From: Zhongshania sp.
Lineage (GTDB): Bacteria; Pseudomonadota; Gammaproteobacteria; Pseudomonadales; Spongiibacteraceae
Assembly (NCBI RefSeq): GCF_029212375.1
Contig: NZ_JARGNU010000007.1
Span: 62,001-126,000, forward strand
Length of the DNA stretch: 64,000 nucleotides
Direction of reading: 5' to 3'
The position numbers were made by a program, and so were the translations under genes. Under the pieces are notes generated by a model. That model did not search any database. It had not been told where the DNA came from and was given only the letters and a program-made list of their open reading frames with translations. Positions 9,321 through 59,461 of this stretch are shown piece by piece; within the stretch, counting starts at the first letter, position 1, and each line of letters starts with the position of its first letter.

Positions 9321-9348
9321 CTTACGTAATTGCGATGGCGGTAGATCA
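9321..9348 (-). promoter_or_regulatory. candidate ECF sigma (ChrR/sigma-E-type) promoter of the DUF523-phrB operon
   Basis: On the minus strand TGATCT (9348-9343) is followed after 16 bases by CGTAAG (9326-9321), giving TGATCT-N18-TAAG. The start point would fall near 9314, about 35 bases before the ATG at 9279. This matches the spacing and core I recall for Rhodobacter sigma-E (TGATCC-N18-TAAGA), whose regulon includes a photolyase. The same layout occurs twice at 59416-59461. Confidence 0.55.
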
Positions 9349-9405
9349 TGATACCGCCGTTGCTATTAGCCTAGTCGGTCTTGGTGGTTTTGCCTGTGTC
9401 GCGCG

Positions 9406-9810
9406 TTATTTGGCTTCGCCTGCCAAAAATAAAATTAGCGCCCGAAAGTCGTCGTCGCTGCAGTTTACGCACATACCCTTGGGTGGCATGCTGTTAATTC
9501 CGCTTTTAGTGTTAGCGAGTAATCCTTCTAAGCCTTTTTGCAGGCGTGGTGCCCACTGATCCCTGTTGCCGCTGCGGGGCGCGCCGGCGGCGCCGGCACT
9601 GTGGCAGCCATAGCAGCTTTGAATATATAAGGACTTTAACGCTGGATCGCTGGGCATGCGGCTGCGGCTAGCGGCATTGGCAGCGCTTGCGGTATTTGCC
9701 GCTACTTGACCGTCGGTGTTGCTGGCCTCGGGGCTGCATGCGCTTAAACCTATTAGCAAGAGCCCAGTGAACAGGGTTTGGCTGAGGCGAAAAGACGGAA
9801 ATATCGGCAT
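9406..9810 (-). CDS. cytochrome c5-like lipoprotein
   Basis: A 134-residue monoheme cytochrome. The signal peptide ends in the lipobox LIGLSAC (Cys at about residue 25), then an Ala/Asn/Ser-rich linker. The heme site is CYGCH near residues 66-70, the axial-methionine motif is NSMPPKG, and the C-terminal pair is CVNC. It aligns almost end to end with the soluble c5 cytochrome at 1766-2068, so they are paralogues with different localisation: one free, one lipid-anchored. It probably passes electrons at the membrane; the partner is unknown. It runs alone between the DUF523 operon and a methyltransferase gene. Confidence 0.88.
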   Translation of the reverse strand: MPIFPSFRLSQTLFTGLLLIGLSACSPEASNTDGQVAANTASAANAASRSRMPSDPALKSLYIQSCYGCHSAGAAGAPRSGNRDQWAPRLQKGLEGLLANTKSGINSMPPKGMCVNCSDDDFRALILFLAGEAK

Positions 9811-9850
9811 TAATTTGGCTCCGAAAAACGAGTAGAGCGCAGTTTACCGT

Positions 9851-10636
9851 TTAAATCGCCGCTTTGTCAGAGCCTTGGCCTTGCTGAGGGCGAGTTGCGT
9901 TAGCTGCTCGCTTTTGCGCCAATACTTTTAAGGTGGGTTTAAAATTGGGTCGAAAATTCACTTTGCTAAACTGATGTGTTTCTAGCAGCTGCTTGAGTGA
10001 AGGCTTGGCGAAATACAGCAAATGTTCTGGCGGTCGAATTGCGGTCCAATCGAGCAGGTTCTGCTTTACGGAGAAGTGGCCAATGTCGGGGGTGGTTAAA
10101 AATAAAACGCCGCCATCATTTAGCAAGGTGTAAAGGGCGTCGAGAAAGGTTTGAGGATTGGCAAGGTGCTCAATGACTTCGCAACAGTAAATAATGTCAA
10201 AGCCTTCACCTTGGGCGGCGAGGGCTTCTGCAGAAATCGTTTGAAATTGGGCAAGTGGGTATTGGCGCTGGGCAAACTCAATGCTGCTGCTGTCTAGGTC
10301 GATACCTAGTGCATCAAGGCCTAAGCTGCGCGCCGCCTCTACGGCAAAGCCGGCATTGCAGCCAATATCAATAAAGCGCTTGCCCTTGCTCAGCCGTTTT
10401 AAGGACCAGATGCGCTTGGTCGCTCGGCGCTGCTTGGATTTAAGTTTGCGAGTGTATTGGGGGGTTTTGTGGTAGTCGTGGTAAAAGGCCGCGAGTGCGT
10501 CGGGGGCGGGCATGGGGTGCACATAAATTAAGGTGCAGTGTTGGCACTCGTATAAATCGTGGGCATTTTTACTGCCGTAAAAAGTGGTTTCCGTTTGGAA
10601 GCAACTTGGGCACTCCATGGAGGCGATCCTTTGCAT
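9851..10636 (-). CDS. class I SAM-dependent methyltransferase with N-terminal zinc ribbon
   Basis: A 261-residue protein. Residues about 9-37 form a zinc ribbon (CPSC ... CQHC). The methyltransferase fold begins with motif I FIDIGCNAGFAVEAA (about residues 87-101), with a DLDSSSIEFAQ acidic loop and IIYCCEVIEHL at strand 4. The arrangement resembles the methyltransferases that modify lipids, quinones or surface sugars; the substrate cannot be told from sequence. The neighbouring genes give no firm clue. The start could be either the TTG/ATG near 10636 or the internal MECPSC methionine (residue 7), which has the conserved ribbon immediately after it. Confidence 0.83.
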   Translation of the reverse strand: MQRIASMECPSCFQTETTFYGSKNAHDLYECQHCTLIYVHPMPAPDALAAFYHDYHKTPQYTRKLKSKQRRATKRIWSLKRLSKGKRFIDIGCNAGFAVEAARSLGLDALGIDLDSSSIEFAQRQYPLAQFQTISAEALAAQGEGFDIIYCCEVIEHLANPQTFLDALYTLLNDGGVLFLTTPDIGHFSVKQNLLDWTAIRPPEHLLYFAKPSLKQLLETHQFSKVNFRPNFKPTLKVLAQKRAANATRPQQGQGSDKAAI

Positions 10637-10718
10637 TGATGCAGATATAAGTACTCATCAATGTAATGACCTAGTGTGGCAGTTTTGTGAAATGAGTGCG
10701 CTATTAGCGATTGCTCGC

Positions 10719-11237
10719 TTAGTCGCTAGAAAATCCGAATGAGTGGGTTTCGTCCTCGCTCTGGCGGTCGATAGCGCCAACATCAAGCACGGGTGCGGCG
10801 TCGATGTGCTGGGCGTCCATCATATGCGCTACGCGTTGCAGGGCGCTGATAATTTGGGTTTGTTCCCAGTCCTGGAGATCGCTGAACTGGCGAGTAAAAT
10901 AGTCGTGCAGGGGCATGGGCGCGTTGCGAATGAGGTCATTGCCAGCGTCCGTTAGGCAGGCAAATACTTTGCGTTTGTCTTGGCTAGAGCGCTCTCTGGC
11001 GACGAGGCCGCGCTTTTCGAGGCGGTCGAGTATGCTGGTTACGGTGGCTTGGCTGAGGCTGACCTGATTGGCGACGTCACTGATAATGGCGTCGCCCTTA
11101 TCGCGCAGGGTTTGCAGTATTAACATTTGCGGCGCGGTGAGTCCGGCGGTCTTCATTAAATGCTTTGAATGCAAATCAATTGCCCGAGTTACTCGGCGCA
11201 GCGAGACTAATACTTCGTTTATATGATTCATTTTCAC
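10719..11237 (-). CDS. ectR: MarR-family regulator of ectoine synthesis, EctR-like
   Basis: A 172-residue winged-helix regulator. The recognition region is ISDVANQVSLSQATVTSILDRLEKRGLV (about residues 53-80), followed by the wing RERSSQDKRKVFACLT. Size and sequence match EctR1-type repressors, which in methanotrophs bind the ectA promoter. It is divergent from ectA across 246 bases, the usual layout. An 18-bp palindrome just before ectA (11461-11478) is a candidate operator. The C-terminal extension (about residues 140-172) is acidic and variable. Confidence 0.88.
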   Translation of the reverse strand: MKMNHINEVLVSLRRVTRAIDLHSKHLMKTAGLTAPQMLILQTLRDKGDAIISDVANQVSLSQATVTSILDRLEKRGLVARERSSQDKRKVFACLTDAGNDLIRNAPMPLHDYFTRQFSDLQDWEQTQIISALQRVAHMMDAQHIDAAPVLDVGAIDRQSEDETHSFGFSSD

Positions 11238-11324
11238 CGTCTGTCGATTGGCTTAGCGGCCCAATGGTAGCGGCTTGTGGCGGTTTTTGCATCAGTTATC
11301 CCCTGCGTTTGTCAATAGCTGGCC

Positions 11325-11354
11325 TTGAGATAATGCAATAAAAGCGCGTATAAT
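11325..11354 (+). promoter_or_regulatory. candidate sigma70 promoter upstream of ectA
   Basis: TTGAGA (11325-11330) and a perfect TATAAT (11349-11354) are separated by 18 bases in the ectR-ectA intergenic region. The start near 11361 would leave a leader of about 120 bases before ectA. A second weaker pair, TTGAAT (11434-11439) and TAAATT (11458-11463), lies closer to ectA and overlaps the palindrome at 11461-11478, suggesting two promoters as reported for other ectoine operons. Confidence 0.6.
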
Positions 11355-11460
11355 GCTTCGTGTTCTAAGTAATTAATCAGGAGGTTGGGTTCATCGATTT
11401 ACGGGAAATTGGCGATATTTAAGGGATTATCACTTGAATATCACGTAATTTACTCGCTAA

Positions 11461-11478
11461 ATTAGTATGAACACTAAT
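11461..11478. promoter_or_regulatory. 18-bp palindrome, candidate EctR operator
   Basis: ATTAGT-ATGAAC-ACTAAT is a perfect 6-bp inverted repeat with a 6-bp spacer, the size typical of MarR dimers. It ends 5 bases before the GTG start of ectA and overlaps the -10 of the proximal promoter candidate, so a bound repressor would block initiation. No binding data; inference from position and symmetry. Confidence 0.45.
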
Positions 11479-11483
11479 AGATT

Positions 11484-12005
11484 GTGTTGAAATCAAATAG
11501 CGCGACGCAAGCCACGGCTGCCACGCTTCGTTTTCGCCAGCCAACGGCGGAAGATGGTTACGCCCTAAACCAATTAGTGGCGGCCAGCCCACCACTAGAC
11601 ACCAATTCTGTTTACTGCAATCTGCTGCATTGCACTCACTTTGCCGAAACCGCGGTTGCCGCTGAAGAAGACGGCAAGTTAGTGGGCTTTATTTCTGCGC
11701 ACATTATTCCCGCTAAGCCGAACACCGTTTTTGTGTGGCAGGTGGTGGTGGATAAGAGTCAGCGCGGGCGGGGATTGGCCAAGAAGATGCTCAAAGAAGT
11801 GATAAAGCGTCCGGCCTGCGCCGAAGTGAAATATATGGAAACTACTATTACACCAGATAACGAAGCATCTTGGGCTTTGTTCCGCAGTTTTGCTCGGGAC
11901 CTAGACACCGAATTAAATCATAGCCTCTGGTTTGAAAAAGAGGCGCATTTTGGCGGCCAGCACGACAGCGAAGCGCTGCTGTGTATCGGCCCCTTCGCTC
12001 AGTAG
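11484..12005 (+). CDS. ectA: L-2,4-diaminobutyrate N-acetyltransferase
   Basis: A 173-residue GNAT-fold enzyme that acetylates L-2,4-diaminobutyrate on the gamma-amino group, the second ectoine-specific step. Family signatures are PPLDTNSVYCNLLHCTHFAET, FVWQVVVDKSQRGRGLAKKML (acetyl-CoA pyrophosphate loop RGRGLA) and TTITPDNEASWALFRSFARDL. The start is uncertain: no ATG is available, GTG 11484 or TTG 11487 must be used, and no clear Shine-Dalgarno precedes them. It is the first gene of the ectABC-ask operon, 65 bases before ectB. Confidence 0.95.
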   Translation: MLKSNSATQATAATLRFRQPTAEDGYALNQLVAASPPLDTNSVYCNLLHCTHFAETAVAAEEDGKLVGFISAHIIPAKPNTVFVWQVVVDKSQRGRGLAKKMLKEVIKRPACAEVKYMETTITPDNEASWALFRSFARDLDTELNHSLWFEKEAHFGGQHDSEALLCIGPFAQ

Positions 12006-12070
12006 GCTTGAGCCAATATCTTTTTACTCAGTATTCATCCGCTCAGTAAAGGACACTAAGAGGACTAAAC

Positions 12071-13345
12071 ATGACTATTTTTGACAGACTTGAATCCGAA
12101 GTACAATCCTACGCCCGCTCATTTCCGGTGACCTTTGATAAGGCCCAAGGCGAGCACTTGTACTCTACCGACGGCAAGCAATACATCGACTTTTTGGCTG
12201 GCGCAGGCACCTTAAACTACGGCCACAATAACCCCGTACTTAAAAAGGCGTTGGTTGATTACATCATGCGTGACGGCATCACCCATGGCCTAGATATGCA
12301 CACCGAGGCCAAAGGCGATTTTTTACAGGCTTTTAACGAGCATATTCTTGCGCCGCGAGACATGACCTACACTTTTCAGTTTACTGGCCCCACTGGTACT
12401 AACGCGGTGGAAGCGGCGCTGAAATTGGCACGCAAAGTAACCGGTCGTACCAGTATTGTTTCGTTCACCAACGGCTTTCACGGCGTAACCCTGGGCGCAG
12501 TTGCGGCCACCGGTAATAGCCATCACCGTGGTGGCGCTGGCGTGGCGCTGGGCGATGTTACCCGTATGCCGTTTTGTGGCTACTACGGTCGCGATGCCGA
12601 CAGCCTGAAAATGATGGACAAGCTGCTCTCAGATCCGTCTTCGGGTGTCGATCTGCCTGCGGCAATGATTGTTGAGCCAGTGCAGGGCGAGGGTGGCTTA
12701 AATGTCGCCAATAATGATTGGCTGCGCGGCTTGGAAAAACTGTGTCGCAAACACGATATTTTGTTGATTGTTGACGACATTCAAGCGGGCTGCGGTCGCA
12801 CCGGTACTTTCTTTAGTTTTGAAGGTAGCGGTATCAAGCCCGACATTATCACCATGTCTAAATCATTGAGCGGCTACGGCCTGCCCTTCGCGATTGTACT
12901 GATTCGCCCCGATTTAGATATTTGGGAACCGGGTGAGCACAACGGTACCTTCCGCGGTAATAACCACGCCTTTATCACCGCAGCGGCGGCTATTCGCCAC
13001 TACTGGAAAGACGATAAGTTTGCCGCTGAGATCGTAGAGAAATCAGCCATCGTCAGCCACCGCTTTAAGAAGCTTTCTGATCTTTATGGCGTTACCAAAT
13101 TGCAGCCCAAGGGCCGCGGTATGATGCAGGGTCTGGCTTGTCGCGACGGTGATATTGCCGACGAAATTGGTCGCGCTTGCTTTGAGCGGGGCTTGGTCAT
13201 TGAAACCTGTGGTAACCGTGGTCACGTAGTTAAAGTGTTTTGCCCATTAACCATTGATAAAGCCGAGTTAATGCGCGGGCTGGATATTTTGTCTGACAGT
13301 ATCGCCGAAGTATTGGGTGAGTCAGTAGCTAAAAAAGCCTCGTAA
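12071..13345 (+). CDS. ectB: diaminobutyrate-2-oxoglutarate aminotransferase
   Basis: A 424-residue class III PLP aminotransferase that converts aspartate semialdehyde to L-2,4-diaminobutyrate using glutamate. PLP-binding elements are [33 protein letters not shown] and the Schiff-base lysine in [10 protein letters not shown] (Lys264). The length is normal for EctB. The ATG at 12071 follows an AGAGGA ribosome site. It is the second gene of the ectoine operon, with 104 bases to ectC. Confidence 0.98.
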
Positions 13346-13449
13346 GCGGCTGAGCATACGCCTCTTCTGCAGATAAACATTTGCGGAAGTGGCGTGCTTT
13401 ATTCAGCAACTGAGCTAACGAATTTTAGTATTAGGAAAAGGAACACAAG

Positions 13450-13848
13450 ATGATTGTAAGAACACTGGAAGAATGTCAAAACTCTGAGCGCCGCGTTGAT
13501 AGTGACAACTGGAACAGCGTGCGAATGTTACTGAAAGACGACAAAATGGGTTTTTCATTCCATATCACCACTATTTACGCCAATACTGAGACCCCAATTC
13601 ACTACCAGAACCATCTGGAGTCGGTGTACTGCATGTCGGGCAATGGTGAAGTTGAAACTTTAAGTGACGGCAAAGTTTATAAAATTGAAGCAGGCACCTT
13701 GTACATTCTCGATAAGCACGACAATCATTTACTGCGCGGCGGCAGCGAAGACATGAAAATGGCCTGTGTATTTAATCCACCGCTGAACGGCAAAGAAGTG
13801 CATGACGAAAATGGAGTCTACCCATTGGCGGCTGAGGCAGTGACCTGA
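13450..13848 (+). CDS. ectC: L-ectoine synthase
   Basis: A 132-residue cupin that cyclises N-gamma-acetyl-diaminobutyrate to ectoine in the cytoplasm. The N-terminus [16 protein letters not shown] and the core [23 protein letters not shown] are typical of EctC, with metal-binding residues around Glu57, Tyr85 and His93 expected from the family. AGGAAAAGGA lies before the ATG. No ectD (ectoine hydroxylase) follows, so the product here is ectoine rather than 5-hydroxyectoine unless ectD lies elsewhere. Confidence 0.98.
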
Positions 13849-13896
13849 GCTATTGAATTTTAAAAAAATATTTTTTAAATTCAAGGGAGAGTAGCA

Positions 13897-15333
13897 GTGG
13901 GACACAGTGTAGAGAAAATTGGCGGCACCTCAATGACCAACTACGAGGCGGTGCGCGACAATGTTATTTTAGCTGGCGGTGAGAATGGCAATATTTATCA
14001 GCGTATCTTCGTGGTTTCAGCTTACGGCGGCGTAACCGATTTATTATTAGAAAATAAGCGTACTAGTCATCCTGGGGTTTACGCTCTGTTTGCCGATGAC
14101 GGCGCCGAAACTTTGTGGCGCGATGCGCTAAGTAATGTCGGTAATGCTTTAAAAGAAATCAATGCTGGTTTGTTTCCCGATGCCGAGCAGCTTGAGGCCG
14201 CCAATACCTATATTGAAGGCCGGCTGTTTGAAGCCGAGCGCTGCATGGATAATTTACATAGGCTTTGCCAGCATGGTCATTTTGGTTTAGAAGACCATCT
14301 GCTTACCGTGCGCGAAATGCTGGCCAGTATTGGCGAGGCGCACAGCGCGTGGAATACCGCCACCTTGCTTAAGCGCGATGGCATTAATACTCGTTATATT
14401 GATCTTTCTGGCTGGCGCGCAGAGGAAGCTTTGCCCCTAGATCAGCATATAAGTGAGGCTTTGTCCGGTATCGATTTAAATACCACTATGCCGATTGTTA
14501 CGGGCTATGCCCACTGTAAAGAAGGCCTAATGGCGAGCTTTGATCGCGGCTATAGCGAAATGACCTTCAGTCGTATGGCGGTTATTAGTGGTGCTCGCGA
14601 AGCGGTTATTCACAAAGAGTATCACCTTAGTAGCGCCGACCCGCGTTTGGTGGGCGCCGATAAAGTGGTGCCGATAGGCCGCACCAATTACGATGTTGCC
14701 GACCAGCTTGCCAACTTGGGCATGGAGGCAATTCACCCTCGCGCTGCCAAAGGTTTGCGCCAGCAAAAAATTGCTTTGCGGGTAAAAAACACCTTTGAGC
14801 CTCATCACTCGGGTACGCTTATTGATTGCGATTACCGCAGTGAAAAGCCCTGTGTTGAAATTATTGCCGGTCGCAAGCAAGTCTATGCACTGGAAGTTTT
14901 CGACCAAGATATGGTGGGTGCGCTGTGGCAGTATGAGCAAAAAATACTGGGCGCGATTGAGCGCTATAAAGGCACGGTGATCACTAAAGACATCAACGCC
15001 AATACCATTACTAATTATCTGGGTGTTAATTTAAAAACCGTGAAACGCATTGTGAGCGCGGTTAAAGAATTGTTCCCCGATGCCGAAGTCAGCACCCGCA
15101 AAGTAGCCATTATTTCGGCGATTGGCAGCGATATGCAGGTGCCAGGTATGTTGGCTAAAACCGTGGTGGCCTTGGCGTCGGCAAACATTAGCGTGTTGGC
15201 CATGCACCAGTCTATGCGTCAGGTCGACATGCAGTTTGTGGTGAACGAAGACGACTACGAAAAAGGCGTCGCAAGTCTGCATCGTTGCTTAGTCGAGGTG
15301 TACGACCACGGTGATGCTATATGCGCAGCGTAA
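13897..15333 (+). CDS. ask_ect: aspartate kinase of the ectoine operon (Ask_Ect)
   Basis: A 478-residue aspartokinase that makes aspartyl phosphate, the precursor for EctB. The kinase start VEKIGGTSMTNYEAVRDN differs from housekeeping LysC by KIGGTSM rather than KFGGTS, as in other Ask_Ect proteins. C-terminal ACT domains begin near VAIISAIGSDMQVPGM. This dedicated isoform is thought to escape lysine/threonine feedback. The start is GTG at 13897 after GGGAGAG. Its 3' end overlaps the next gene by 13 bases, which suggests translational coupling. Confidence 0.96.
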   Translation: MGHSVEKIGGTSMTNYEAVRDNVILAGGENGNIYQRIFVVSAYGGVTDLLLENKRTSHPGVYALFADDGAETLWRDALSNVGNALKEINAGLFPDAEQLEAANTYIEGRLFEAERCMDNLHRLCQHGHFGLEDHLLTVREMLASIGEAHSAWNTATLLKRDGINTRYIDLSGWRAEEALPLDQHISEALSGIDLNTTMPIVTGYAHCKEGLMASFDRGYSEMTFSRMAVISGAREAVIHKEYHLSSADPRLVGADKVVPIGRTNYDVADQLANLGMEAIHPRAAKGLRQQKIALRVKNTFEPHHSGTLIDCDYRSEKPCVEIIAGRKQVYALEVFDQDMVGALWQYEQKILGAIERYKGTVITKDINANTITNYLGVNLKTVKRIVSAVKELFPDAEVSTRKVAIISAIGSDMQVPGMLAKTVVALASANISVLAMHQSMRQVDMQFVVNEDDYEKGVASLHRCLVEVYDHGDAICAA

Positions 15334-16220
15334 TACAGGGGTTTATCCTCTGTTGGGGGCTGTTGCCCCTGTTCGCGGTTGCGGCGGAAAGCACTGAGTC
15401 AAAACCTAGTGCGGCGCAAGTCGATGCCAGTATTGATAATTTAGATAAACCGCTCTACTCGCCTTTTATTGAGCGCTATATGCTCGATGAAGTGCGCAAC
15501 CTGCGTATCGACATGGAGCGTGCCCATCGCGAATTAGCCGCCGAAGTAGTCGACCGCGAATTAGGCGCCGCCGATAAGGCGGTGTCTTACGCAACCAACA
15601 CGGTTACCTATTTTTTCTACCTTATCGCGGGGGTGAGTTCGGCTCTTGTATTAATGGGTTGGAATTCGGTGCGCGATATAAAAGAAAAAGTGCACAGTGT
15701 TGCTAACGAACAAGTTGCCGAATTGGTTGAAGAGTACGAGAAACGTCTGCGCGCGATTGAAAAGCAGTTAAAGCAAGAAACTGCACATATCGAGTCTAAC
15801 CGCGAAGAAATTACCCTTACTCAAGAGATTCATTCGCTGTGGCTGCGAGCCAGTCAGGAATCGAGTCCGGCGGGCAAAATCGCAATATACGACCAAATTC
15901 TGGCGGCGCGAGGCGACGATATTGAGGCCATCACTTATAAGGCTGATGCGGCACTCGATCAAAACGAGCCCCAGTGGGCAATCAATCTCTGTCAGCAAGC
16001 GTTGCTGCTAGACGAAACCAATGCCCACGCGTTTTATCAGTTGGCCTGCGCTCATACTTGCCAAGGAAATCTCGACGACGCGGCGCGCTACTTTACGCAC
16101 GCCGTGGCGCAGTCCGAATCATATCGAGAAGAGCTGTATCGCGATCCGGCGCTGTCCGAATTGCGAGAGCATCCGCTGCTGATTGAGTTGCTGGCCCCAA
16201 CGGTTGAGCACCCTTCATAG
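15321..16220 (+). CDS. membrane-anchored coiled-coil TPR protein in the ectoine operon
   Basis: A 299-residue protein of unknown function. It has an N-terminal signal peptide (about 1-22, ending AVAAES), an extracytoplasmic stretch, one transmembrane helix (about residues 94-114, TYFFYLIAGVSSALVLMGW), a coiled coil (about 125-165, rich in E/K/Q) and two or three TPR-like repeats (about 185-285, with AIYDQILAARGDDIEAITYKAD and AINLCQQALLLDETNAHAFYQLA). The helix would place the TPRs in the cytoplasm. It overlaps the aspartokinase gene by 13 bases and is followed by a symporter gene, so it is likely part of the osmoprotection operon, perhaps as a scaffold or sensor. Confidence 0.75.
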   Translation: MRSVIQGFILCWGLLPLFAVAAESTESKPSAAQVDASIDNLDKPLYSPFIERYMLDEVRNLRIDMERAHRELAAEVVDRELGAADKAVSYATNTVTYFFYLIAGVSSALVLMGWNSVRDIKEKVHSVANEQVAELVEEYEKRLRAIEKQLKQETAHIESNREEITLTQEIHSLWLRASQESSPAGKIAIYDQILAARGDDIEAITYKADAALDQNEPQWAINLCQQALLLDETNAHAFYQLACAHTCQGNLDDAARYFTHAVAQSESYREELYRDPALSELREHPLLIELLAPTVEHPS

Positions 16221-16268
16221 GCTTAACTTTTTTCGCCCACTCAAAACCAAAATAGTTTGGATCTGAAT

Positions 16269-17696: not shown

Positions 17697-17705
17697 ATCC
17701 GAGTG

Positions 17706-17729
17706 GCGCGCTAGCTATTCGCGCTTTTT
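17706..17729 (+). terminator. possible terminator after the ectoine locus
   Basis: GCGCG (17706-17710) pairs with CGCGC (17720-17724) across 9 bases and is followed by five Ts. The stem is short, so this is weak. Confidence 0.4.
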
Positions 17730-17754
17730 GTGCTCTTGCCCAAGTGACACCTTT

Positions 17755-17782
17755 AGTCATTCCCGCGGAAGCGGAAATCTCA
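17755..17782. repeat. degenerate REP-like palindrome
   Basis: GTCATTCCCGCGGAAGCGGA resembles the CATTCCCGCGAAAGCGGGAAT palindromes scattered in many gamma- and betaproteobacteria. TTCCCGC and GCGGAAA are inverted with one mismatch around GGAA. Only this copy was noticed in the window. Confidence 0.35.
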
Positions 17783-25377: not shown

Positions 25378-28034
<2,657 letters not shown>

Positions 28035-29874: not shown

Positions 29875-31116
29875 CTATTGATAACGCGCGTGTTTTAATT
29901 TGGTGAACTGTTCAGTGCGCCGATCTTCTTCAGCACAAATACTTAATAGATCGTCAATAAAGTTGTGTAATGCACGGCGCTCTACATATTGGATTTTTGT
30001 TTGCTGCTCGCTAGTTAACATGTGATACATCGACGCCGCGCCAAAGTCGCCAAATAAAATATCACCGTTGTTATCAACTAAGGTGTTATGGGCGTATATG
30101 TCGCCGTGGCAAATCTGCTGTGACTGCAGGTGGCTGAGTACCGAGCTCATTTGTGTCACAATTTTTGTGATTGTAGCTATTGGCAAAGAAAATTCTTTGG
30201 GAAAGGTGTCGCGGGTGCAACTGGTAAAACTGGGCGGAAGACCGAGGTTTTTATAGTTGGCTGGGATCAGCTTCATTATTAATGCTAGGCAGTCAGCCTC
30301 ATTAACTTGGGCGAGTGGCTGCACTAAATTAGGATGACTCCCCGCTTTTAAACAGGCGCGTAGCTCGTCTTGAGGGTAACCGTCGCTCGTAAGCACGCCT
30401 TTAAATATCTTTACCGCGACCTCTTTGGGAAAGCTATCTTGGGCGGTATTCCACGTTGCCTTAGAAATTAGCCCGGAGGCGCCCTCGCCAAGTATGTTTT
30501 GCAGGGTATAGCTAGAGGACGCGACTTCAATGACCGCCGCCGCGCCGATGTTGGACTGACTAAAAGGATTGCCAGCAAAGGCCAGCCACGCCAATTTGGG
30601 CAGCTCTAGTAATTGATCGGGGAAGGCGCTTAGCTGATTAGCCGAAATGCGAATTAACTCCAGGTTCTGGCACAGCGCTAAACTCTGGGGTAGCCGCTGT
30701 AAGCGATTACAGGCCAGCAGTAGTTTCTGTAGTCGCGGCCGCTGGCCCAATGCCTCGGGTAGCGTCTCTATTTGATTACCCGTTAAAGTCAGCCACCGTA
30801 ATTTTGGGGGTAGCGCGTCGCCAGAAACGTGTTTGATTTGGTTGGATTTAAATCCTACCATTTCTAAGTTTTCACACTGACCAAGCACCTCGGGCAGGGA
30901 TTCAAACTGATTATTTGAAGCAAAAATAATTTTTAGTTTTTTAAGCTGACGAAGTTCAACGGGTAAGTTGCGCAATTGGTTGTTGGAAATATCGAGTATT
31001 TCTAAACTATCCGCCAAGGTGAGAATCTCTAAAGGGAGTGATTCAAGCTTAGCCGATAGGCTTAGGCGCTGAATGCCGGCTAATTCGCCAGATTTTAATT
31101 GGGCAAGGGTATGCAA
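29875..31116 (-). CDS. leucine-rich-repeat protein kinase
   Basis: A 413-residue cytoplasmic protein. Residues about 15-190 hold seven or so bacterial-type leucine-rich repeats (for example LEILDISNNQLRNLPVELRQ and LRWLTLTGNQIETLPEALGQ). A Ser/Thr-kinase-like domain follows (about 205-400): glycine loop LGEGASGLISKA, ATP-binding lysine in EVAVKIFKG, catalytic loop ICHGDIYAHNTLVD (HGD instead of HRD) and metal motif LFGDFGAASMY. Close homologues occur singly in Pseudomonas and relatives. The start is TTG at 31116 because no ATG is available and a stop lies nine codons upstream. Substrate unknown. Confidence 0.85.
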   Translation of the reverse strand: MHTLAQLKSGELAGIQRLSLSAKLESLPLEILTLADSLEILDISNNQLRNLPVELRQLKKLKIIFASNNQFESLPEVLGQCENLEMVGFKSNQIKHVSGDALPPKLRWLTLTGNQIETLPEALGQRPRLQKLLLACNRLQRLPQSLALCQNLELIRISANQLSAFPDQLLELPKLAWLAFAGNPFSQSNIGAAAVIEVASSSYTLQNILGEGASGLISKATWNTAQDSFPKEVAVKIFKGVLTSDGYPQDELRACLKAGSHPNLVQPLAQVNEADCLALIMKLIPANYKNLGLPPSFTSCTRDTFPKEFSLPIATITKIVTQMSSVLSHLQSQQICHGDIYAHNTLVDNNGDILFGDFGAASMYHMLTSEQQTKIQYVERRALHNFIDDLLSICAEEDRRTEQFTKLKHARYQ

Positions 31117-50087: not shown

Positions 50088-50102
50088 TTACTCAGCCCGA
50101 AT

Positions 50103-51653: not shown

Positions 51654-51837
51654 TCTCTGTTTTCCTGTCGCGTAATCCTGAGAGCAGCCTTGGGTGTTGC
51701 TGTGGGGTGGGCAAGAAAGAGAACCCCCAAAGTGGCTGGTAATTTGGGGCGCCATTATTACAAAAAACCTGAAGCAGCGCTAATCTTTGCGGGCATAAAT
51801 CTCGGTTTGAGAAGTGTGCCCAAATATGGTGCTTAAT

Positions 51838-52689: not shown

Positions 52690-52773
52690 GGCGGGTCTGG
52701 TGTCCGTGATCAAAGAAGCGGCCAATTATAGCGTTTAGGCAGGGCTGGGTCTTGTTTGACTTGCGGCTAATAT

Positions 52774-53175
52774 TTACTCGTCGTTTAGGTTTTTAAAGCG
52801 ATGGATTTGACGGCGTTGCTTTTTATTGGGTCGCTCGGGGTGTAATAGGCCGGCCGCCGCGCCGAGTATTTTGCGGTCGGCGGCGATTTGTTCGCGGGCG
52901 CGAATACTGTCTTCGGTCTCGCGGTAGAGTAGTGCCGCCTCTGGTGCGCCGCGGCGCTGGCCGGATAGCGCGATTACATCCACTACTTTGCTGTCCCAGC
53001 CCGAGCGAATCGTGAGCGTTGCGCCAACTTGCACTTCTTTACTCACTTTGCAGCGCTCGCCGTTGTAGTGAACCTTGCCGCCTTCTACGGCCTGTTTGGC
53101 AAGGCTGCGAGTTTTGTAAAAGCGCGCTGCCCACAGCCATTTGTCGAGGCGAATACCCGCTGGGTTATCAGTCAT
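52774..53175 (-). CDS. hslR: ribosome-associated heat shock protein Hsp15
   Basis: A 133-residue S4-domain protein that binds 50S subunits carrying nascent chains. The S4 domain is IRLDKWLWAARFYKTRSLAKQAVEGGKVHYNG (about residues 8-39). The C-terminus is basic (RPNKKQRRQIHRFK). It overlaps the upstream nucleotidase gene by 8 bases and precedes hslO, as in E. coli. Confidence 0.96.
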   Translation of the reverse strand: MTDNPAGIRLDKWLWAARFYKTRSLAKQAVEGGKVHYNGERCKVSKEVQVGATLTIRSGWDSKVVDVIALSGQRRGAPEAALLYRETEDSIRAREQIAADRKILGAAAGLLHPERPNKKQRRQIHRFKNLNDE

Positions 53176-53845
53176 TGGCCGTACTCCGCTTGGGAATGGG
53201 GAGTATTTCAGAAAAGTGGTGAATAGCGGGGTAGCTCAACTGCTCGCGGCTGGGTTGTTTGCTGTCCGGCTGGCGCAGGGTAAGTAGATGGCGAATACCA
53301 AATGCCGCGGCGGAATCGAGCACGCTGGCGGTGTCGTCAACCAGCAGCGTGCGCTCTGGATTAAAGTCCCAGTGCTGTTGTAGCCGATGCCAAAACTCGG
53401 GGTCTTCTTTGGGTTTGGCCAGCTCATGGGAGGTGATCATTTTGTGCATCCAGCGGGCTAGGTCGGTGTGCTCTAATTTTAGATTTAAGCTGCCGCGGTG
53501 GGCGTTGGTGACCAGCCAGGTTTCGCAGTGACTCGCGTCTAGGGCGTTTAAAAAATCCGCAGTGCTGGGGTGGGGAGCAATTAAGTGAGCTACTTCGCGC
53601 TTAAGGGCGACGATATCCACCTTAAGCTGATCTGACCAGTAGTCTAAGCAGTACCAATTGAGCGAGCCGCGCTCGGCCATAATGCGCTGTATTAAGTCTT
53701 GTGCTACTTGCTCTGGTTCGCCACCGTGAATTTCAGCGTAGCGCTTGGGGAGATGTTGCGACCAGAAAAAATTGTCGTAGTGTAAGTCGAGTAAAGTGCC
53801 GTCCATGTCGAGAAGAACGGTGTCAATTTCCTGCCAATTTATCAT
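53168..53845 (-). CDS. yrfG: HAD-family GMP/IMP nucleotidase YrfG-like
   Basis: A 225-residue HAD phosphatase. Motif I is VLLDMDGTLLDLHYDNFFW (catalytic Asp pair), motif II is WLVTNAH, motif III a lysine in HELAKPKEDPEFW, and motif IV LLVDDTASVLDSA. YrfG in E. coli hydrolyses GMP and IMP. The order yrfG-hslR-hslO is conserved. Three small paralogous genes precede it on the same strand, the nearest ending 28 bases upstream. Confidence 0.92.
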   Translation of the reverse strand: MINWQEIDTVLLDMDGTLLDLHYDNFFWSQHLPKRYAEIHGGEPEQVAQDLIQRIMAERGSLNWYCLDYWSDQLKVDIVALKREVAHLIAPHPSTADFLNALDASHCETWLVTNAHRGSLNLKLEHTDLARWMHKMITSHELAKPKEDPEFWHRLQQHWDFNPERTLLVDDTASVLDSAAAFGIRHLLTLRQPDSKQPSREQLSYPAIHHFSEILPIPKRSTAND

Positions 53846-53872
53846 AGAGTACCGGTGTTGAACGCACCGGCT

Positions 53873-54052
53873 TTAATTTGCTAAGCGAGTGCTATTGAGT
53901 TTGCCGTTGACTGCATCGCGCATGTCGATTACTTCGGCGTAATTAACATTCAGCCACCACTCGGCGCGGTTATTGCCGTAGGGGTTAATCGTGCGCGCAC
54001 CACGGCGAATTTCTTGGGAAAAAGTGCTATCTGATTTATTTGTTGTGGCCAT
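53873..54052 (-). CDS. small WWLNVNY-motif protein, copy A
   Basis: A 59-residue protein of an unrecognised family. Start ATG 54052 has GAGGG 8 bases upstream; an in-frame ATG at 54067 lacks an RBS. The conserved core is RAEWWLNVNYAEVIDMRDAV at residues about 29-48. The N-terminal third is polar (TTNKSDSTFSQ) and the C-terminus short and basic. No signal peptide or membrane helix is visible. It is the last of three tandem paralogues and lies 28 bases before yrfG, which it may share a transcript with. Confidence 0.7.
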   Translation of the reverse strand: MATTNKSDSTFSQEIRRGARTINPYGNNRAEWWLNVNYAEVIDMRDAVNGKLNSTRLAN

Positions 54053-54254
54053 TTTCGGCGCCCTCATTGGTTTTGCTCAGCGGCGTAATGCAGTGAGTAA
54101 CCAAGGTACCGACAGGGCTAGGAATGGAGTATAGGGAAAAGTCCCTAGCGAGTGAACCTGTGTATTCAAACTGTGAACTGAGTACGGTTTCTGAGGTGGG
54201 TGCAGGGCTTATGACGGCCGTAGTGGAGCTCAGAAATGGGGTAGAAGCAATTTG

Positions 54255-54274
54255 TGCTTGCTAGGATGGGGGTA
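54255..54274. promoter_or_regulatory. 20-bp element shared upstream of small genes (copy 1)
   Basis: TGCTTGCTAGGATGGGGGTA matches the element at 54896-54915 at 18 of 20 positions. It lies about 200 bases upstream of small gene A (54052). Reverse strand core: TACCCCCATCC. A regulator site is inferred from conservation only. Confidence 0.4.
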
Positions 54275-54318
54275 GATAACGCCGTGCATGACAACCTAAA
54301 ATTTGCTAGTGACGGAGT

Positions 54319-54537
54319 TCAGGGCTTGCGCTTTTCTCGCGCGGCCTTGGTGTCAATTGCTTTGTTCATATCGATGTCTTCGGAGTAGTTTACATCCAGC
54401 CACCAATCGCCACGATGGCTGCCGAACTGGCGTTTTGAGGTTGGTGCTTCGTCGACTTGCTCGAATGGTGTATTGACGGGGGGCTTGTCTTCGGGTTTTT
54501 TCATCTCGGTAGGGCTCGTAGCTGAGGCTTCATGCAC
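54319..54537 (-). CDS. small WWLDVNY-motif protein, copy B
   Basis: A 72-residue protein (61 residues if started at the internal ATG 54504, which would match its paralogues in length). The core is RGDWWLDVNYSEDIDMNKAI near the C-terminus, followed by a basic AAREKRKP tail. The N-terminal part is Pro/Glu-rich and probably disordered. Neither start has a strong RBS. It is the middle of three tandem paralogues. It is more diverged than A and C, replacing E by D and A by S in the motif. Confidence 0.68.
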   Translation of the reverse strand: MHEASATSPTEMKKPEDKPPVNTPFEQVDEAPTSKRQFGSHRGDWWLDVNYSEDIDMNKAIDTKAAREKRKP

Positions 54538-54632
54538 TCTTAAATTTAAAATACGACTTTTCCAGATAACTAAGTATAGGTGACTTTACTTAGTGGTGCG
54601 TAGCCAAAGATAAAACAGTGTCGTGCAGCGCT

Positions 54633-54818
54633 TTAGCTGGCGCGGCGCTGTAATGCGGAAACAGCGTGATTAATTTCAATGGTTTCAGCGTAATTTACGT
54701 TCAACCACCATTCGCTGCGTTTTAGGCCGTTTTGATTTAATGACGCTTGGCGCGAGATATTTTGGCCAAAAATAGTACCGTGTTCAGGCTGTGCTGGTGT
54801 TTTTTTTGCAGTTGCCAT
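54633..54818 (-). CDS. small WWLNVNY-motif protein, copy C
   Basis: A 61-residue protein beginning MATAKKTPAQ, like copy A's MATTNKSD. The core is RSEWWLNVNYAETIEINHAV, followed by SALQRRAS. GGGGAC precedes the ATG. It is first of the three paralogues in the transcription direction. No known domain is recognised; a cytoplasmic location is likely as there is no signal peptide. Confidence 0.7.
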   Translation of the reverse strand: MATAKKTPAQPEHGTIFGQNISRQASLNQNGLKRSEWWLNVNYAETIEINHAVSALQRRAS

Positions 54819-54895
54819 GGTTTTGTCCCCGAATCGTGTATTTTTTGTATGTAGTTACTTTAGCGATTAAGGGGCTGGCAGAATATGCGGAACAA

Positions 54896-54915
54896 TGCTT
54901 ACTCGGATGGGGGTA
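54896..54915. promoter_or_regulatory. 20-bp element shared upstream of small genes (copy 2)
   Basis: TGCTTACTCGGATGGGGGTA, 18 of 20 positions identical to 54255-54274. It lies about 78 bases upstream of small gene C. The distance fits an activator site ahead of a promoter. Confidence 0.4.
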
Positions 54916-55037
54916 TATGTGTAATAACGGTTGGGGTTGGCGGTATGGCTACCAAATGCGGTGTTGCGACCTACCGACGAAATAACACCGCACTAGAGTA
55001 GCGCGGCGTGATAAGGGCGCAGAGAGACCTAGCGGTC

Positions 55038-55616
55038 TCAAAGCATAAGCGCAAGCATACTGGCTTTAAATTGCTCTTTAGTGCTGGGGAATTGGCGGTA
55101 AGAGATAACTAGGCGACCGACGACTTTGATTAAGTCGTCGAGCTTTACGCTGCGTTTATTGCGTGCATTGTATGCATTTAGCGGCTCTTTGAGCAGTTCG
55201 CGCCAATGCTGGTCAGACTCGTCGGTGTCGATGTGCGGTGAGGCCTCGGCGGCATTAACGCCGGAAACCAAGTCGATCTTGCCCGCCTCTGGTGGCCGAT
55301 AGGTGGCGGCAAACCAAATACATTCCTCTAGCATTAGCGGAAAGTTATTGTCGTGCAATACAGCTATATCTTTGATTTTATAGAACATCCGTTGGCGTTC
55401 TATGTCGATCAAGGCCGTAATAATATCGGATTTACCGTTAAAATAGCGGTACACCGTACGCCGAGTAACATTGGCCACTTTGGCAATGTCTTCTATGGTC
55501 GTGGCTTTGATGCCTTTGGTCATAAAACAGTCAACGGCGGATTTGAGCAGAATTTTCTTACCGGTATCGAGATCGTCGACCCGCGCTCCGTTGCCCCATC
55601 GTTTATTTGTCTTCAT
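55038..55616 (-). CDS. TetR-family transcriptional regulator
   Basis: A 192-residue regulator. The helix-turn-helix is TTIEDIAKVANVTRRTVYRYFNGKSDIITALI (about residues 38-69), with the family-typical ILLKSAVDCFMTKGIKAT before it. The C-terminal domain gives no ligand clue. ATG 55616 (MKTNKRWGNG) is preferred; an upstream in-frame start at 55655 would add 13 basic residues. It lies between the small-protein cluster and the cfa locus and may control either. Confidence 0.85.
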   Translation of the reverse strand: MKTNKRWGNGARVDDLDTGKKILLKSAVDCFMTKGIKATTIEDIAKVANVTRRTVYRYFNGKSDIITALIDIERQRMFYKIKDIAVLHDNNFPLMLEECIWFAATYRPPEAGKIDLVSGVNAAEASPHIDTDESDQHWRELLKEPLNAYNARNKRSVKLDDLIKVVGRLVISYRQFPSTKEQFKASMLALML

Positions 55617-55980
55617 AGCGTTTGCTCTTCGGTTTTTCGTCCTGCCAATTGTCACTATCTTAGCATGCTGTAATCTTGTGGATGGCCTTAAAACCCGCTA
55701 ATTTCATAGTGGATTGTACGTATAACTCGGTTTTTCATGAACGTTTGGAGGTAGTTATACTTTATAAGTTCAAGTAAATATCGCCAGATTACGCCCTATT
55801 TCGGCTGCAAGTACTGCTGAGCATAATACGGCCTACCACTAACTCTGGCGGAGGGGAAAGTACTGTCAGTCAGCGGTTTAGCTAGGTGGGTGGCTGTTGT
55901 GCTGTGGTGAGGCTATGCGGATAGGGGATGAATTAATCTATATTTTAAACAGAGGGCCGCTAAGCGACCCTCTGTTTTTT
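55617..55980. other. intergenic region with terminator 55947-55980
   Basis: No gene seen. AAACAGAGGG (55947-55956) and CCCTCTGTTT (55968-55977) form a 10-bp stem with T tracts, directly after the cfa stop, so it terminates the lipid operon. The rest is AT-rich and must carry the promoter of the TetR gene. Confidence 0.6.
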
Positions 55981-57222
55981 TTAGTGCAGCGGCTTCTCAA
56001 GCACAAACTGATAAACATCAATCGATTTACCCCGAAACCCACCCTCGCAGTAGCCTAGGTAGTAATTCCACATCCGCTTAAAGCGTTGGTCAAAGCCCAG
56101 AGGTGCAATCTCGGACCAGTGTTGGTTAAAGCTTTTTGCCCACTCGTGCAGGGTGCGGGCGTAGCCCAAGCCAAAGGCCTCTTCATCTTTTATTGTTAGC
56201 CCAGCGGTTTGCGCTTCGGCGCGGAAGCGCTCGGGGCTGGGCAGCATGCCGCCGGGGAAAATATAGGTCTGAATAAAGTCGGGGTTGGCGCTATAGCCCG
56301 CAAAGCGGGCCTCTTCAATAGTTATAATTTGAATGGCGGCGCTGCCACCGGGTTTGAGGCGTTGGTACAGAGTATCGAAATAGGTCGGCCAATATTTCTC
56401 GCCGACTGCCTCGAGCATTTCTATCGACACAATATGGTCGTATTGGCTCTTGGTATCACGGTAATCGGTTAGGCTGAACTCGGCGCTACCGCGCAGTTCC
56501 CGCTTGCTAAGCCGCTGCTTGGCGTATTCCAGCTGGCGCTCCGACAGGGTGATGCCGTGGAGTTCAACGGTCTTTTGCAGGCAAAGCTGCTCGGCAAAGC
56601 CACCCCAGCCGCAGCCAATCTCTAGAATGCGGTCACCGTCTTTTATATTGATTAGGTCGATGAGTCGTTGATATTTTGCGTGCTGGGCGTCGTTGAGGCT
56701 TTGCTGCTCGTCGCGGTAGTAGGCGGCTGAGTAAGTCATGCTGGGGTCTAGCCAGCGCTCATAAAATTCGTTGCCCAAGTCGTAGTGGTAGCTAATGTTG
56801 CGGCGGCTGCCGCGCTTGCTATTGGCGTTGCGGCGATGCCGCCATTTTTGAATGGCGCCTTCTAATTTACCGCTGTCGAGCATGCCGTCAAAGTAGGCTT
56901 CGTTAACGGCAATCCACTCCACCAAAACAGCGAGATCGGGGCTGTCCCAATCGCCGTCCATGTACGCTTCGCTCCAGCCTACTGAGCCGCCGGTAAAGGC
57001 TTTGCGCACGGCTTTCCAGTTGTGCAGAGTCACTACTGGGTTTAAGCGTTCGCAGGGGTGGTCGCCAAATTCAATGCAACTACCATTGGGAAGCGTCAGG
57101 CTGAGCACACCTCGCGCCGCCTTGGATAAGGGCGCGAGCACTTTGGCGAGCATTTGCTGTTGGCGCTTTGCCCACCAGCCGGAATCAAGATGACTTTCTA
57201 AGGCAGCTGCAGCTGATTTCAT
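55981..57222 (-). CDS. cfa: cyclopropane-fatty-acyl-phospholipid synthase family methyltransferase
   Basis: A 413-residue enzyme that uses SAM to add a methylene or methyl group to unsaturated acyl chains of membrane lipids. Signatures are NISYHYDLGNEFYERWLDPSMTYSAAYY, ILEIGCGWGGFAEQL (SAM site, about 195-209), VSIEMLEAVGEKYWPTYF and the terminal RMWNYYLGYCEGGF. It is the third gene of the operon with FAD oxidoreductase and DUF1365. Relatives in such clusters can be UfaM-type methylases of furan fatty acid synthesis rather than true cyclopropane synthases; sequence alone does not separate them here. Confidence 0.93.
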   Translation of the reverse strand: MKSAAAALESHLDSGWWAKRQQQMLAKVLAPLSKAARGVLSLTLPNGSCIEFGDHPCERLNPVVTLHNWKAVRKAFTGGSVGWSEAYMDGDWDSPDLAVLVEWIAVNEAYFDGMLDSGKLEGAIQKWRHRRNANSKRGSRRNISYHYDLGNEFYERWLDPSMTYSAAYYRDEQQSLNDAQHAKYQRLIDLINIKDGDRILEIGCGWGGFAEQLCLQKTVELHGITLSERQLEYAKQRLSKRELRGSAEFSLTDYRDTKSQYDHIVSIEMLEAVGEKYWPTYFDTLYQRLKPGGSAAIQIITIEEARFAGYSANPDFIQTYIFPGGMLPSPERFRAEAQTAGLTIKDEEAFGLGYARTLHEWAKSFNQHWSEIAPLGFDQRFKRMWNYYLGYCEGGFRGKSIDVYQFVLEKPLH

Positions 57223-57249
57223 AGTAGACCCTTTGCGTATTCAGCATAT

Positions 57250-58035
57250 TTATTTATCAATACGTGAAATTGACGAACTTGGTTCAGCTGGCCGAGGGAC
57301 TAATTTCAAACCTTGGCAAAATAACTTTAGTGCCTCCCAGTGAATACCGCCAAGTACTTTCAACGTCATAAAGGGCAGGGTGCAGAAATTGCGCAGTAAT
57401 TCGCGATCGTTAAAGGGCCTGCGCTGGCCTTGGAATGCGGCGTGAAGCAGGTCTTTGGCGTCTGCTTGGACGCGAATACTAATGCCGATTTTATCTAGAG
57501 GCGGCAGAAGCCTGAATTTATAGCGCATGGCCATGCTGTTAAACGGCGACACGTAAAAATTTTTATCGCACTGTTGTTGAATTGTGGTTTTTTCGCGGTC
57601 CGCTTTGGCCACCGCAAATAAATAGCTGTGCCGCTGCTTAAAGGTATTGCTCACCTCATATAGAACGGCAAACAACTGCTGCTGCTCGTTATAACAGTAA
57701 TAGACGCTCAGTGGATTAAAGGTGTAGCCCATGATGCGGGGGTAGCAGAGTAAGCTGGCGCGCGCGAGGGTGTCATCGATTCCCTCTGCTTTCAGGCTGC
57801 GCTCAAGGTAGCTGCGGGGAGTTTCGCCGCTGCCATTGCCGATATCTTTAAAATGGAAGCTAAATAAATTAAAGCGATTCACCGAAAACCAGCGGCAATG
57901 GCTTGCCGCTTGGTCTAGCTCGTCTAGGTCAAACAGAAAACTGCTAATTCGGTAGGCAAAGCGGTGGCTCAGCGGCGCTAAGCGCTGGTGGCGAACTTCG
58001 CCGCGATAAATCGCGGTGCGCAACTCAGCGCTCAC
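57250..58035 (-). CDS. DUF1365 family protein
   Basis: A 261-residue protein. DUF1365 marks are YRGEVRHQRLAPLSHRFAYRISSFLFDLDEL, PRIMGYTFNPLSVYYCYN, EVSNTFKQRHSYLF and FYVSPFNSMAMRYKFRL. It nearly always sits beside a FAD-dependent amine-oxidase-like gene and a cfa-like gene; a role in acyl-chain modification of membrane lipids is inferred. Its start overlaps the end of the FAD oxidoreductase frame by 4 bases. Confidence 0.9.
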   Translation of the reverse strand: MSAELRTAIYRGEVRHQRLAPLSHRFAYRISSFLFDLDELDQAASHCRWFSVNRFNLFSFHFKDIGNGSGETPRSYLERSLKAEGIDDTLARASLLCYPRIMGYTFNPLSVYYCYNEQQQLFAVLYEVSNTFKQRHSYLFAVAKADREKTTIQQQCDKNFYVSPFNSMAMRYKFRLLPPLDKIGISIRVQADAKDLLHAAFQGQRRPFNDRELLRNFCTLPFMTLKVLGGIHWEALKLFCQGLKLVPRPAEPSSSISRIDK

Positions 58036-59404
58036 GCGGCATTATCGATCACCGGCTTAGTGCTCAGATGAATGCGGCCACTGGCATTGGGCACAATCCA
58101 CGGTCGCACGGTATTGCCCAGTTGCTCGGCCACCGCCAAGCCAGATTGAATGCCATCTTCATGAAAGCCATAGCCAAAATAGCTGCCACAGAACCACGTG
58201 CGGCGCTGGCCCTGTAGTTCCCAAAGATGCTGCTGGGCGTTGAGAGAGGCCTCGTTGAACACGGGGTGCTGGTAGTTAAAACGGCGGTAAACTTGATCTT
58301 TACGCGGCTCAGTCAGCGGATTTAGGGTGAGCAAAATCGACTCTTGGCAAGGTAGATGCTGAAGTAAGTTCATCCAGTAACTGACCGACACTTTTTTGCT
58401 TGTTTGCTTGTTTGCTTGGTGTCGGCGAGGTAATTCCAGCTCGACCACACCTCGCAGCGCTTGGGCATTAAACTTTCATCGCGGTGCAGCACGGCTTCGT
58501 TATTCTCGTAGGCAAAGGCGCCAAGTAAACTGCTTTCCGCTTGACTGGGCTCGTCAAGCAGAGCCAGCGACTGATCTGCATGGCCCGCCATCACCACGTG
58601 GTCAAAGCGGTGACTCTCGCCGTGTTCATCAATAAGGGTAACGTGGTCGCTGGCGCGGCGCACTTTGCTAATACCGCAATTCAGCTTAATAGTGCCGCCA
58701 AAGTCGCTGGCCATTCGCTTTACGTACTCCCGCGAGCCGTTGTTCACTGTTTGCCACTGGGGACGCTCATTGACCTGTAAAAGGCCGTGATTATCGCAAA
58801 AGCGCAAAAAGGTTTTGGCTGGGTAGGCGAGCATTTTCTCAATGGGGGTAGACCAAATCGCGGCGCTCATAGGCAGTAGGTGGTCTTCACAAAAGCCGGG
58901 CCCAAACTTCTCTTGGCGCAGTAATTCGCCAAGGGACAATTCGGCAGGAAGGGTTTCTAGCCAGCCGGCGCTTTGCTTATAAAAGCGCAGTAAATCCTGA
59001 ATCATGCCCCAGAAACGCGGCCGAAAAATATTGCGCTTTTGGGCGAACATGGTGGCTAAGGAGTTCGAGCCACTGTATTCCAGTCGGCCCTTATCTAAAG
59101 ACACGCCAAAGGACATATCGGTGCTTTGGTAGCCAACGCCTAAATGTTTAAACAGTGCTACTAGATTGGGGTAGCAGCGCTCGTTAAAAACGATAAATCC
59201 AGTATCTACGGCAATGGTGCCCGCACTGGTGAGGATATCGACAGTATTGCTGTGGCCGCCGAGGCGTGAATCCTGCTCAAAAAGAGTAACTTGGTGTTGC
59301 TTGCCCAGCAGCCACGCGCTGCTTAAGCCCGATATTCCGGAACCGATGACCGCAATTTTTAATGGCGCTAATGCCGCCGGTCTTAACGTTGTAGATGTTT
59401 GCAT
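58032..59404 (-). pseudogene. FAD-dependent amine-oxidase-like protein, frame broken at an 8-bp repeat (possibly phase-variable)
   Basis: The first part (59404-58370, 344 residues) has the FAD-binding IAVIGSGISGLSSAWLLGK, FEQDSRLGGHSNTVD and MLAYPAKTFLRFCDNHGLL. It runs out of frame after EVWSSWNYLADTKQTSK into KCRSVTG and a stop. The conserved end (KVSVSYWMNLLQHLPCQ ... TWFCGSYFGYGFHEDGIQSGL) continues in another frame to 58032. The break lies at three tandem copies of an 8-bp unit (58395-58418). With two copies the frame joins as TSKKVSVSYWMN and gives 454 residues. Related proteins are linked to fatty-acid modification in alphaproteobacteria (furan fatty acids). Either it is off in this isolate or it switches by slippage. 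Confidence 0.85.
58395..58418 (-). repeat. three tandem copies of an 8-bp unit inside the FAD oxidoreductase gene
   Basis: CAAGCAAA on the minus strand (TTTGCTTG on plus) occurs three times at 58395-58402, 58403-58410 and 58411-58418. Eight is not a multiple of three, so each gain or loss shifts the frame; loss of one copy restores the full frame. Confidence 0.95.
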
Positions 59405-59415
59405 AGATTTATCAC

Positions 59416-59443
59416 TGATCGCACTTTGTTATATTTACGTATA
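59416..59443 (+). promoter_or_regulatory. candidate ECF sigma promoter for the MFS/chalcone-isomerase-like genes
   Basis: TGATCG (59416-59421), 16 bases, CGTATA (59438-59443); start expected near 59450, about 70 bases before ATG 59519. It overlaps the opposing promoter at 59434-59461, sharing TTTACGTA. Same pattern as upstream of the photolyase operon. Confidence 0.5.
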
Positions 59444-59461
59444 TCTCCCCAGAACAGATCA
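59434..59461 (-). promoter_or_regulatory. candidate ECF sigma promoter for the FAD oxidoreductase-DUF1365-cfa operon
   Basis: On the minus strand TGATCT (59461-59456), 16 bases, CGTAAA (59439-59434); start near 59427, about 23 bases before ATG 59404. The spacing is identical to the photolyase promoter candidate (9321-9348) and to the divergent promoter at 59416-59443. Confidence 0.55.

Follow-up and report, generated by a model that had tools for sequence, protein, structure and literature searches.

What governs the three promoter-like sites that lie ahead of a photolyase operon and of both arms of a divergent lipid locus in a 64,000-nucleotide stretch of the genome of Zhongshania sp. (hereafter the window; C26:62001-126000 of genome G000, 3.80 Mb in 29 contigs), and how can two of these sites occupy the same DNA? 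We consider it highly probable that all three are promoters of an extracytoplasmic function (ECF) sigma factor of the ECF11 type, that they belong to a regulon controlled by the anti-sigma factor ChrR, and that the overlapping pair at 59416-59461 constitutes a symmetric two-way promoter. The sites, the sigma/anti-sigma pair, the motif ahead of rpoE, its conservation and the common -10 block of the pair can all be read from the sequence, and it is on this reading that the assignment is based.

Promoter sites and the probable cognate sigma factor

The pattern TGATC(T/G)-N16-CGTA(A/T) reported in a first-pass annotation of the window is present in the sequence with the coordinates, orientations and letters given there. 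The ECF11-type promoter ahead of DUF523-phrB (9348-9321, minus strand) reads TGATCT-N16-CGTAAG, with a TGATC-N17-CGTA core at 9323-9348. The other two sites overlap on opposite strands: the left-arm promoter (59461-59434, minus strand; core 59461-59436) reads TGATCT-N16-CGTAAA and the right-arm promoter (59416-59443, plus strand; core 59416-59441) reads TGATCG-N16-CGTATA. The restatement of the pattern as TGATC-N18-TAA in the same annotation is off by one; the true form is TGATC-N19-TA[A/T], with TAT instead of TAA at the third site, and TGATC-N18-TAA itself has no match in the window (1.16 expected). The looser TGATC-N19-TA was set aside (378 matches in the genome, 181 for a control). TGATC-N17-CGTA matches the window at exactly these three places, against an expectation of 0.30; as one of 100 dinucleotide shuffles also reached three, the significance within the window itself is moderate at best. 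With one mismatch allowed the number rises to 18 (8.4 expected).

The rpoE-chrR pair that the first-pass annotation placed elsewhere in the genome, and on which its reading depended, is indeed found on C19, preceded by the same motif. A profile search of the genome with TIGR02451 identified ChrR at C19:37829-38476 (196 bits, cut-off: 124.5); three further hits, on C3 and C9, were partial and scored under the cut-off. An ECF sigma factor of 187 amino acids, in which both Pfam region 2 and region 4 are present, is encoded immediately 5' of chrR (L013:7254-7817 and L013:7814-8482, respectively), so that the end of the sigma gene overlaps the chrR start. The closest solved structure to this sigma factor is Rhodobacter RpoE (2q1z/2z2s, 113 bits; runner-up: 64 bits), and the alignment of ChrR with 2z2s (residues 4-211) shows that the eight residues which ligate zinc in Rhodobacter ChrR are all conserved, namely H, H, C and C in the anti-sigma domain and H, H, E and H in the cupin domain (PMC6852236; this and the other published accounts are cited from the available portions of the papers). 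TGATCT-N16-CGTATA sits 26 bp ahead of rpoE. The proximity to Rhodobacter RpoE, the adjacent ChrR and the consensus promoter before rpoE argue for assignment of the sigma factor to the ECF11 type.

Distribution and conservation of the motif

Genome-wide, TGATC-N17-CGTA has 41 exact matches, against 11 for the reversed control. Among the 38 located outside the window, 29 fall within open reading frames (ORFs) and 9 are intergenic. Four of the latter lie 26-43 bp upstream of a gene start, i.e. that of rpoE, a DUF4331 gene (L021, C3:66932), a short-chain dehydrogenase/reductase (SDR)/polyketide-cyclase fusion (L030, C7:34390) and NhaA (L042, C19:83139); the remaining intergenic matches are L018, L031, L036, L046 and L052.

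Conservation was assessed in 114 regions of 175 bp, taken ahead of seven genes in 18 genomes of the genus, including our own, and measured from the start of homology instead of the annotated start codon. The motif occurs with spacer 17 in 84 of these regions and with spacer 18 in 8, while N12 accounts for 2 and N10 for 1, and none of the eleven remaining spacings in the range 10-24 yields a match. When 500 letter-shuffled motifs were tried at spacer 17, the most successful matched 2 regions (mean: 0.048). N17 and N18 together cover 92/114 regions, or 85/107 when our own genome is excluded, since its sites brought the genes into the analysis. The counts for individual genes are 15/18 for rpoE (our own genome and 14 of the 17 others), 15/18 for DUF523, 12/17 for ufaD, 16/17 for the major facilitator superfamily (MFS) transporter, 15/16 for DUF4331, 16/16 for SDR and 3/12 for NhaA. 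Several genus genomes are near-copies, hence these are counts of genomes and not of independent events. At the thresholds applied, homologues of MFS, DUF4331 and SDR are missing from G010, whose ufaD-like gene (44% identity) was kept outside the ufaD count.

The DUF4331 gene and the SDR/polyketide-cyclase fusion, the only genes at which some genus members use spacer 18, are conserved candidate members of the regulon outside the window. NhaA was rejected as a core member, as nine of the 12 genomes with a homologue lack the motif and the three that have it include our own; a second NhaA copy in G006 (L190), outside the 12-genome count, is also without it.

Outside the genus we scanned 300 bp upstream and counted among the matches listed. 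On this basis the motif precedes rpoE at 3/3 loci of the sister genus and 7/9 loci at the order level, and ufaD at 3/3 loci of the sister genus. The first-pass reading of these genes as a singlet-oxygen or light-stress regulon is therefore supported at the level of sequence, by the presence of ChrR and an RpoE-like sigma factor, by the motif before rpoE and by its occurrence at the orthologues of all three units in most relatives.

A probable symmetric two-way promoter

The two sites of the lipid locus interlock in a 46-bp symmetric promoter, TGATC-N15-TACGTA-N15-GATCA (59416-59461, both strands; right arm 59416-59441, left arm 59461-59436). Its centre, the palindrome TACGTA (59436-59441), forms a -10 block common to both directions: each strand reads CGTA from it and a -35 element is located on each side, which is the arrangement that distinguishes a bidirectional promoter with a shared -10. 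The earlier annotation, which listed both sites, did not remark on this common block. The 46-bp pattern has one match in the window and none in 100 shuffles. The locus is present in 17 genus genomes, of which 11 have both arms exact and with an identical offset; a tree built from these 17 loci, which has two long branches, implies at least 3 changes in the symmetric pair. TACGTA is found at 12/12 ufaD and 14/16 MFS sites, as opposed to 1/64 sites of rpoE, DUF523, DUF4331, SDR and NhaA, the sole case among these one-way sites being a DUF523 site (the DUF523 site of our own genome reads TACGTA). With 26/28 occurrences at the divergent locus versus 1/64 elsewhere, the palindrome belongs to that locus and not to the ordinary consensus of the sigma factor.

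In a scanned collection of species genomes the 46-bp pattern occurs in exact form in 37 stretches. It adjoins ufaD and MFS in 7 of them (five Zhongshania records, Spongiibacter marinus and Neomelitea salexigens); the remaining 30, in which no homologue of any of 13 query proteins is encoded, are taken as chance. In 369 sampled genomes of the class, from which the other genus members were absent, the pattern was found in our own genome only. Two contigs of Pseudomonas sp. EpS/L25 (L220, L234) carry an identical, fully self-complementary 46-bp match without regulon genes, which is probably a repeat element.

We see an even chance that selection in the Zhongshania/Spongiibacter group has maintained 59416-59461 as a two-way promoter of an ECF sigma factor, a single site at which every binding of the holoenzyme would select either furan-fatty-acid synthesis (left arm) or a transporter and lipid-binding-like operon (right arm), with the outputs tied by competition at abundant sigma factor.

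Counter-evidence and alternative explanations

A number of observations weigh against the assignment proposed here. Within the genus, the motif is missing at rpoE in G004, G008 and G010, at DUF523 in G001, G004 and G010, at ufaD in G002, G007, G011, G012 and G015, at MFS in G001 and at DUF4331 in G015. Six of the 17 genomes, the two nearest relatives G002 and G011 among them, do not have a perfect symmetric pair: the pair is absent from G001, G012 and G015, and in the other three the opposite -35 deviates, by one mismatch in G007 and by two each in G002 and G011. Beyond the genus, and again among the matches listed, the motif precedes ufaD at only 3/10 order-level loci (one at N18) and DUF523 at 0/2 loci of the sister genus and 1/10 at the order level. 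The location of 29 of the 38 outside-window matches in ORFs makes the motif alone a weak predictor, and the genome encodes further ECF sigma factors (30-37% identity).

The alternative that survives best accepts the regulon and regards the 59.4-kb element as two ECF11 promoters that overlap by chance, with no coupling between them and no selection on the common core. We regard it as a serious contender, though falling somewhat short of an even chance. It is favored by the six genomes without a perfect pair, all of which keep at least one arm, and by order-level relatives that have the two divergent sites separate; in G056 and G027 ufaD is divergent to rpoE and each gene has its own separate site. 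Moreover, sigma70 two-way promoters are described as showing little competition at basal activity, competition being suggested only at high activity (PMC12825309). Speaking against such an accidental overlap are the near-restriction of TACGTA to the divergent locus and the offset, which stays constant though spacers differ between genomes.

It is considerably less plausible, and in our view improbable, that the sites serve another ECF sigma factor or that the palindrome is the operator of a repressor or activator, e.g. a light regulator of the MerR/LitR type. The additional ECF sigma factors of this genome would be compatible with such a role, as would the report that MerR and ChrR both act in the blue-light response of Vibrio cholerae (PMC5241685), but the same spacing-strict motif precedes rpoE in 15/18 genus genomes, is non-palindromic at 63/64 one-way sites and equals the published ECF11 consensus (PMC4336711, PMC5507510). 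Finally, coincidental matches to a pattern of nine bases, for which one might invoke the one window shuffle in 100 with three matches and the mostly ORF-internal position of the 41 genome matches, are rejected as having a negligible probability, since orthologous positions keep the motif at one spacing in the genus.

Proposed mechanism

Under the preferred assignment to a ChrR-controlled ECF11 regulon, the sigma factor from C19 would be held by the zinc anti-sigma factor ChrR and, judging from the ECF11 literature, probably freed by singlet oxygen or organic hydroperoxide. The freed sigma factor would then direct transcription of its own operon, of DUF523-phrB (DNA photorepair) and of ufaD-ufaO-ufaM (putatively for the synthesis of methylated furan fatty acids), as well as of the MFS-chalcone-isomerase-like operon and, outside the window, of the DUF4331 and SDR/cyclase genes, so that lipid synthesis and transport may be induced jointly. 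Because two -35 blocks flank a single TACGTA, the holoenzyme could bind in either orientation, presumably one at a time, with mutual exclusion of the two directions; the predicted starts are near 59429 (leftward) and near 59449 (rightward).

With the regulon assignment, a photo-oxidative stress system already known elsewhere is extended to a further marine group, and the DUF4331 and SDR/cyclase genes provide two conserved candidate targets that are unnamed in the available portions of the published regulon descriptions we compared. The symmetric promoter offers a natural test case for promoter symmetry driving divergent transcription, as a single inducible sigma factor would govern both directions, each with a -35 of its own that can be altered separately.

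Genes of the probable regulon and their neighborhood

The photolyase operon begins with a YbgA-like DUF523/DUF1722 gene (8329-9279, minus strand; PF04463, PF08349), followed by phrB (6955-8325, minus strand), identified as a deoxyribodipyrimidine photolyase by Pfam and NF007955 (519.6 bits, cut-off: 506).

The left arm of the lipid locus comprises, all on the minus strand, a ufaD-like flavin adenine dinucleotide (FAD) oxidoreductase (58032-59404), a ufaO-like DUF1365 gene (57250-58035; PF07103, 264 bits) and a ufaM/cfa-like S-adenosylmethionine-dependent fatty-acyl methyltransferase (55981-57222; PF02353, 287 bits). UfaO proteins contain DUF1365 (PMC7380195), and an FAD oxidoreductase, a DUF1365 protein and a CMAS-type methyltransferase encoded together represent the gene grouping of the furan pathway. 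By its domains, rather than by sequence comparison with Rhodobacter, the left arm matches ufaD-ufaO-ufaM of methylated furan fatty acid synthesis. The one-mismatch sequence TGAAC-N17-CGTA at 57261-57286 (minus strand), within ufaO and 39 bp upstream of the ufaM start, is a possible internal promoter for ufaM.

Not all three of these genes are intact in this genome, as ufaD is split by a frameshift into two ORFs (59404-58370 and 58448-58032). The gene has 8 extra nucleotides compared to all 10 genus relatives aligned, inserted in an 8-bp repeat of 3.5 copies (58391-58418), and it is an open frame of 443-467 amino acids in 16 genus relatives. Three origins are conceivable for the insertion: a mutation that has become fixed, a fault of the assembly, or phase variation of furan-fatty-acid synthesis through changes in repeat length.

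The right arm, on the plus strand, starts with a GPH-like MFS transporter (59519-60745; PF13347), with an orthologue in 17/18 genus genomes, and continues with a chalcone-isomerase-like protein (60745-61320; PF16036), which adjoins MFS in all 7 of the named symmetric-promoter loci. A TonB-dependent receptor (61488-63964, plus strand) is perhaps a further member. Its reading frame is interrupted near 63345 by a slip that may be either a true mutation or an assembly error; in L239 and L213 the receptor is one long frame. Together with the ufaD frameshift, this leaves one broken gene in each arm of the symmetric promoter, and if these are true mutations, furan fatty acids may be lacking from this strain.

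Elsewhere in the window, a KatG-like peroxidase-family gene (738 amino acids; 25378-27594, minus strand) has no exact motif upstream; katG is a target of this type of sigma factor in Pseudomonas syringae (PMC5507510). A protein with leucine-rich repeats and a kinase domain (29875-31116, minus strand) is unusual for a bacterium.

Comparison with known systems

The motif and the core regulon are already published, while the architecture of 59416-59461 looks new. We found no symmetric promoter of an ECF sigma factor in the literature searched, which is weak evidence, given that coverage was partial and subscription journals were mostly outside it.

The system resembles RpoE-ChrR (ECF11) of Rhodobacter (Cereibacter) sphaeroides in the combination of an ECF sigma factor with a zinc/cupin anti-sigma factor, in the TGATC -35 element and in the targets, which in R. 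sphaeroides likewise include genes for a photolyase, UfaM, UfaD and UfaO (PMC6852236, PMC7380195). It differs, as far as those accounts extend, in that ufaM shares one operon with ufaD-ufaO and phrB is combined with DUF523, and in the divergent MFS gene, with both arms using one palindromic -10.

In Shewanella oneidensis, promoters with TGATCC / CGTAAT precede rpoE2 of the RpoE2-ChrR pair and ybgA-phrB-cfa, and transcription starts have been mapped for rpoE2 and pgpD; phrB and cfa are part of one long operon there, whereas here they are ~50 kb apart in separate units (PMC4336711). The consensus of P. syringae PSPTO_1043/1042, a pair induced by singlet oxygen and organic hydroperoxide, is TGATCC-N16-CGTA, with spacing identical to ours, although most of its other targets, in the portion of the paper available, are P. 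syringae genes not seen here (PMC5507510). The V. cholerae motif is TGATC-N16-18-CGTAW (PMC5241685), and ybgA-phrB and cfa genes are preceded by the same motif in published gammaproteobacterial regulons (PMC4336711, PMC5507510).

With respect to architecture, the closest parallel is provided by sigma70 bidirectional promoters, as described in the available parts of two papers (PMC12825309, PMC10268837). In them, too, a single near-symmetric -10 is flanked by a -35 to either side, and their divergent starts are by definition 7-25 bp apart, compared to ~20 bp predicted here. Unlike in these housekeeping-sigma cases, both directions of the promoter at 59416-59461 carry an ECF consensus and lead to known targets of that sigma factor.

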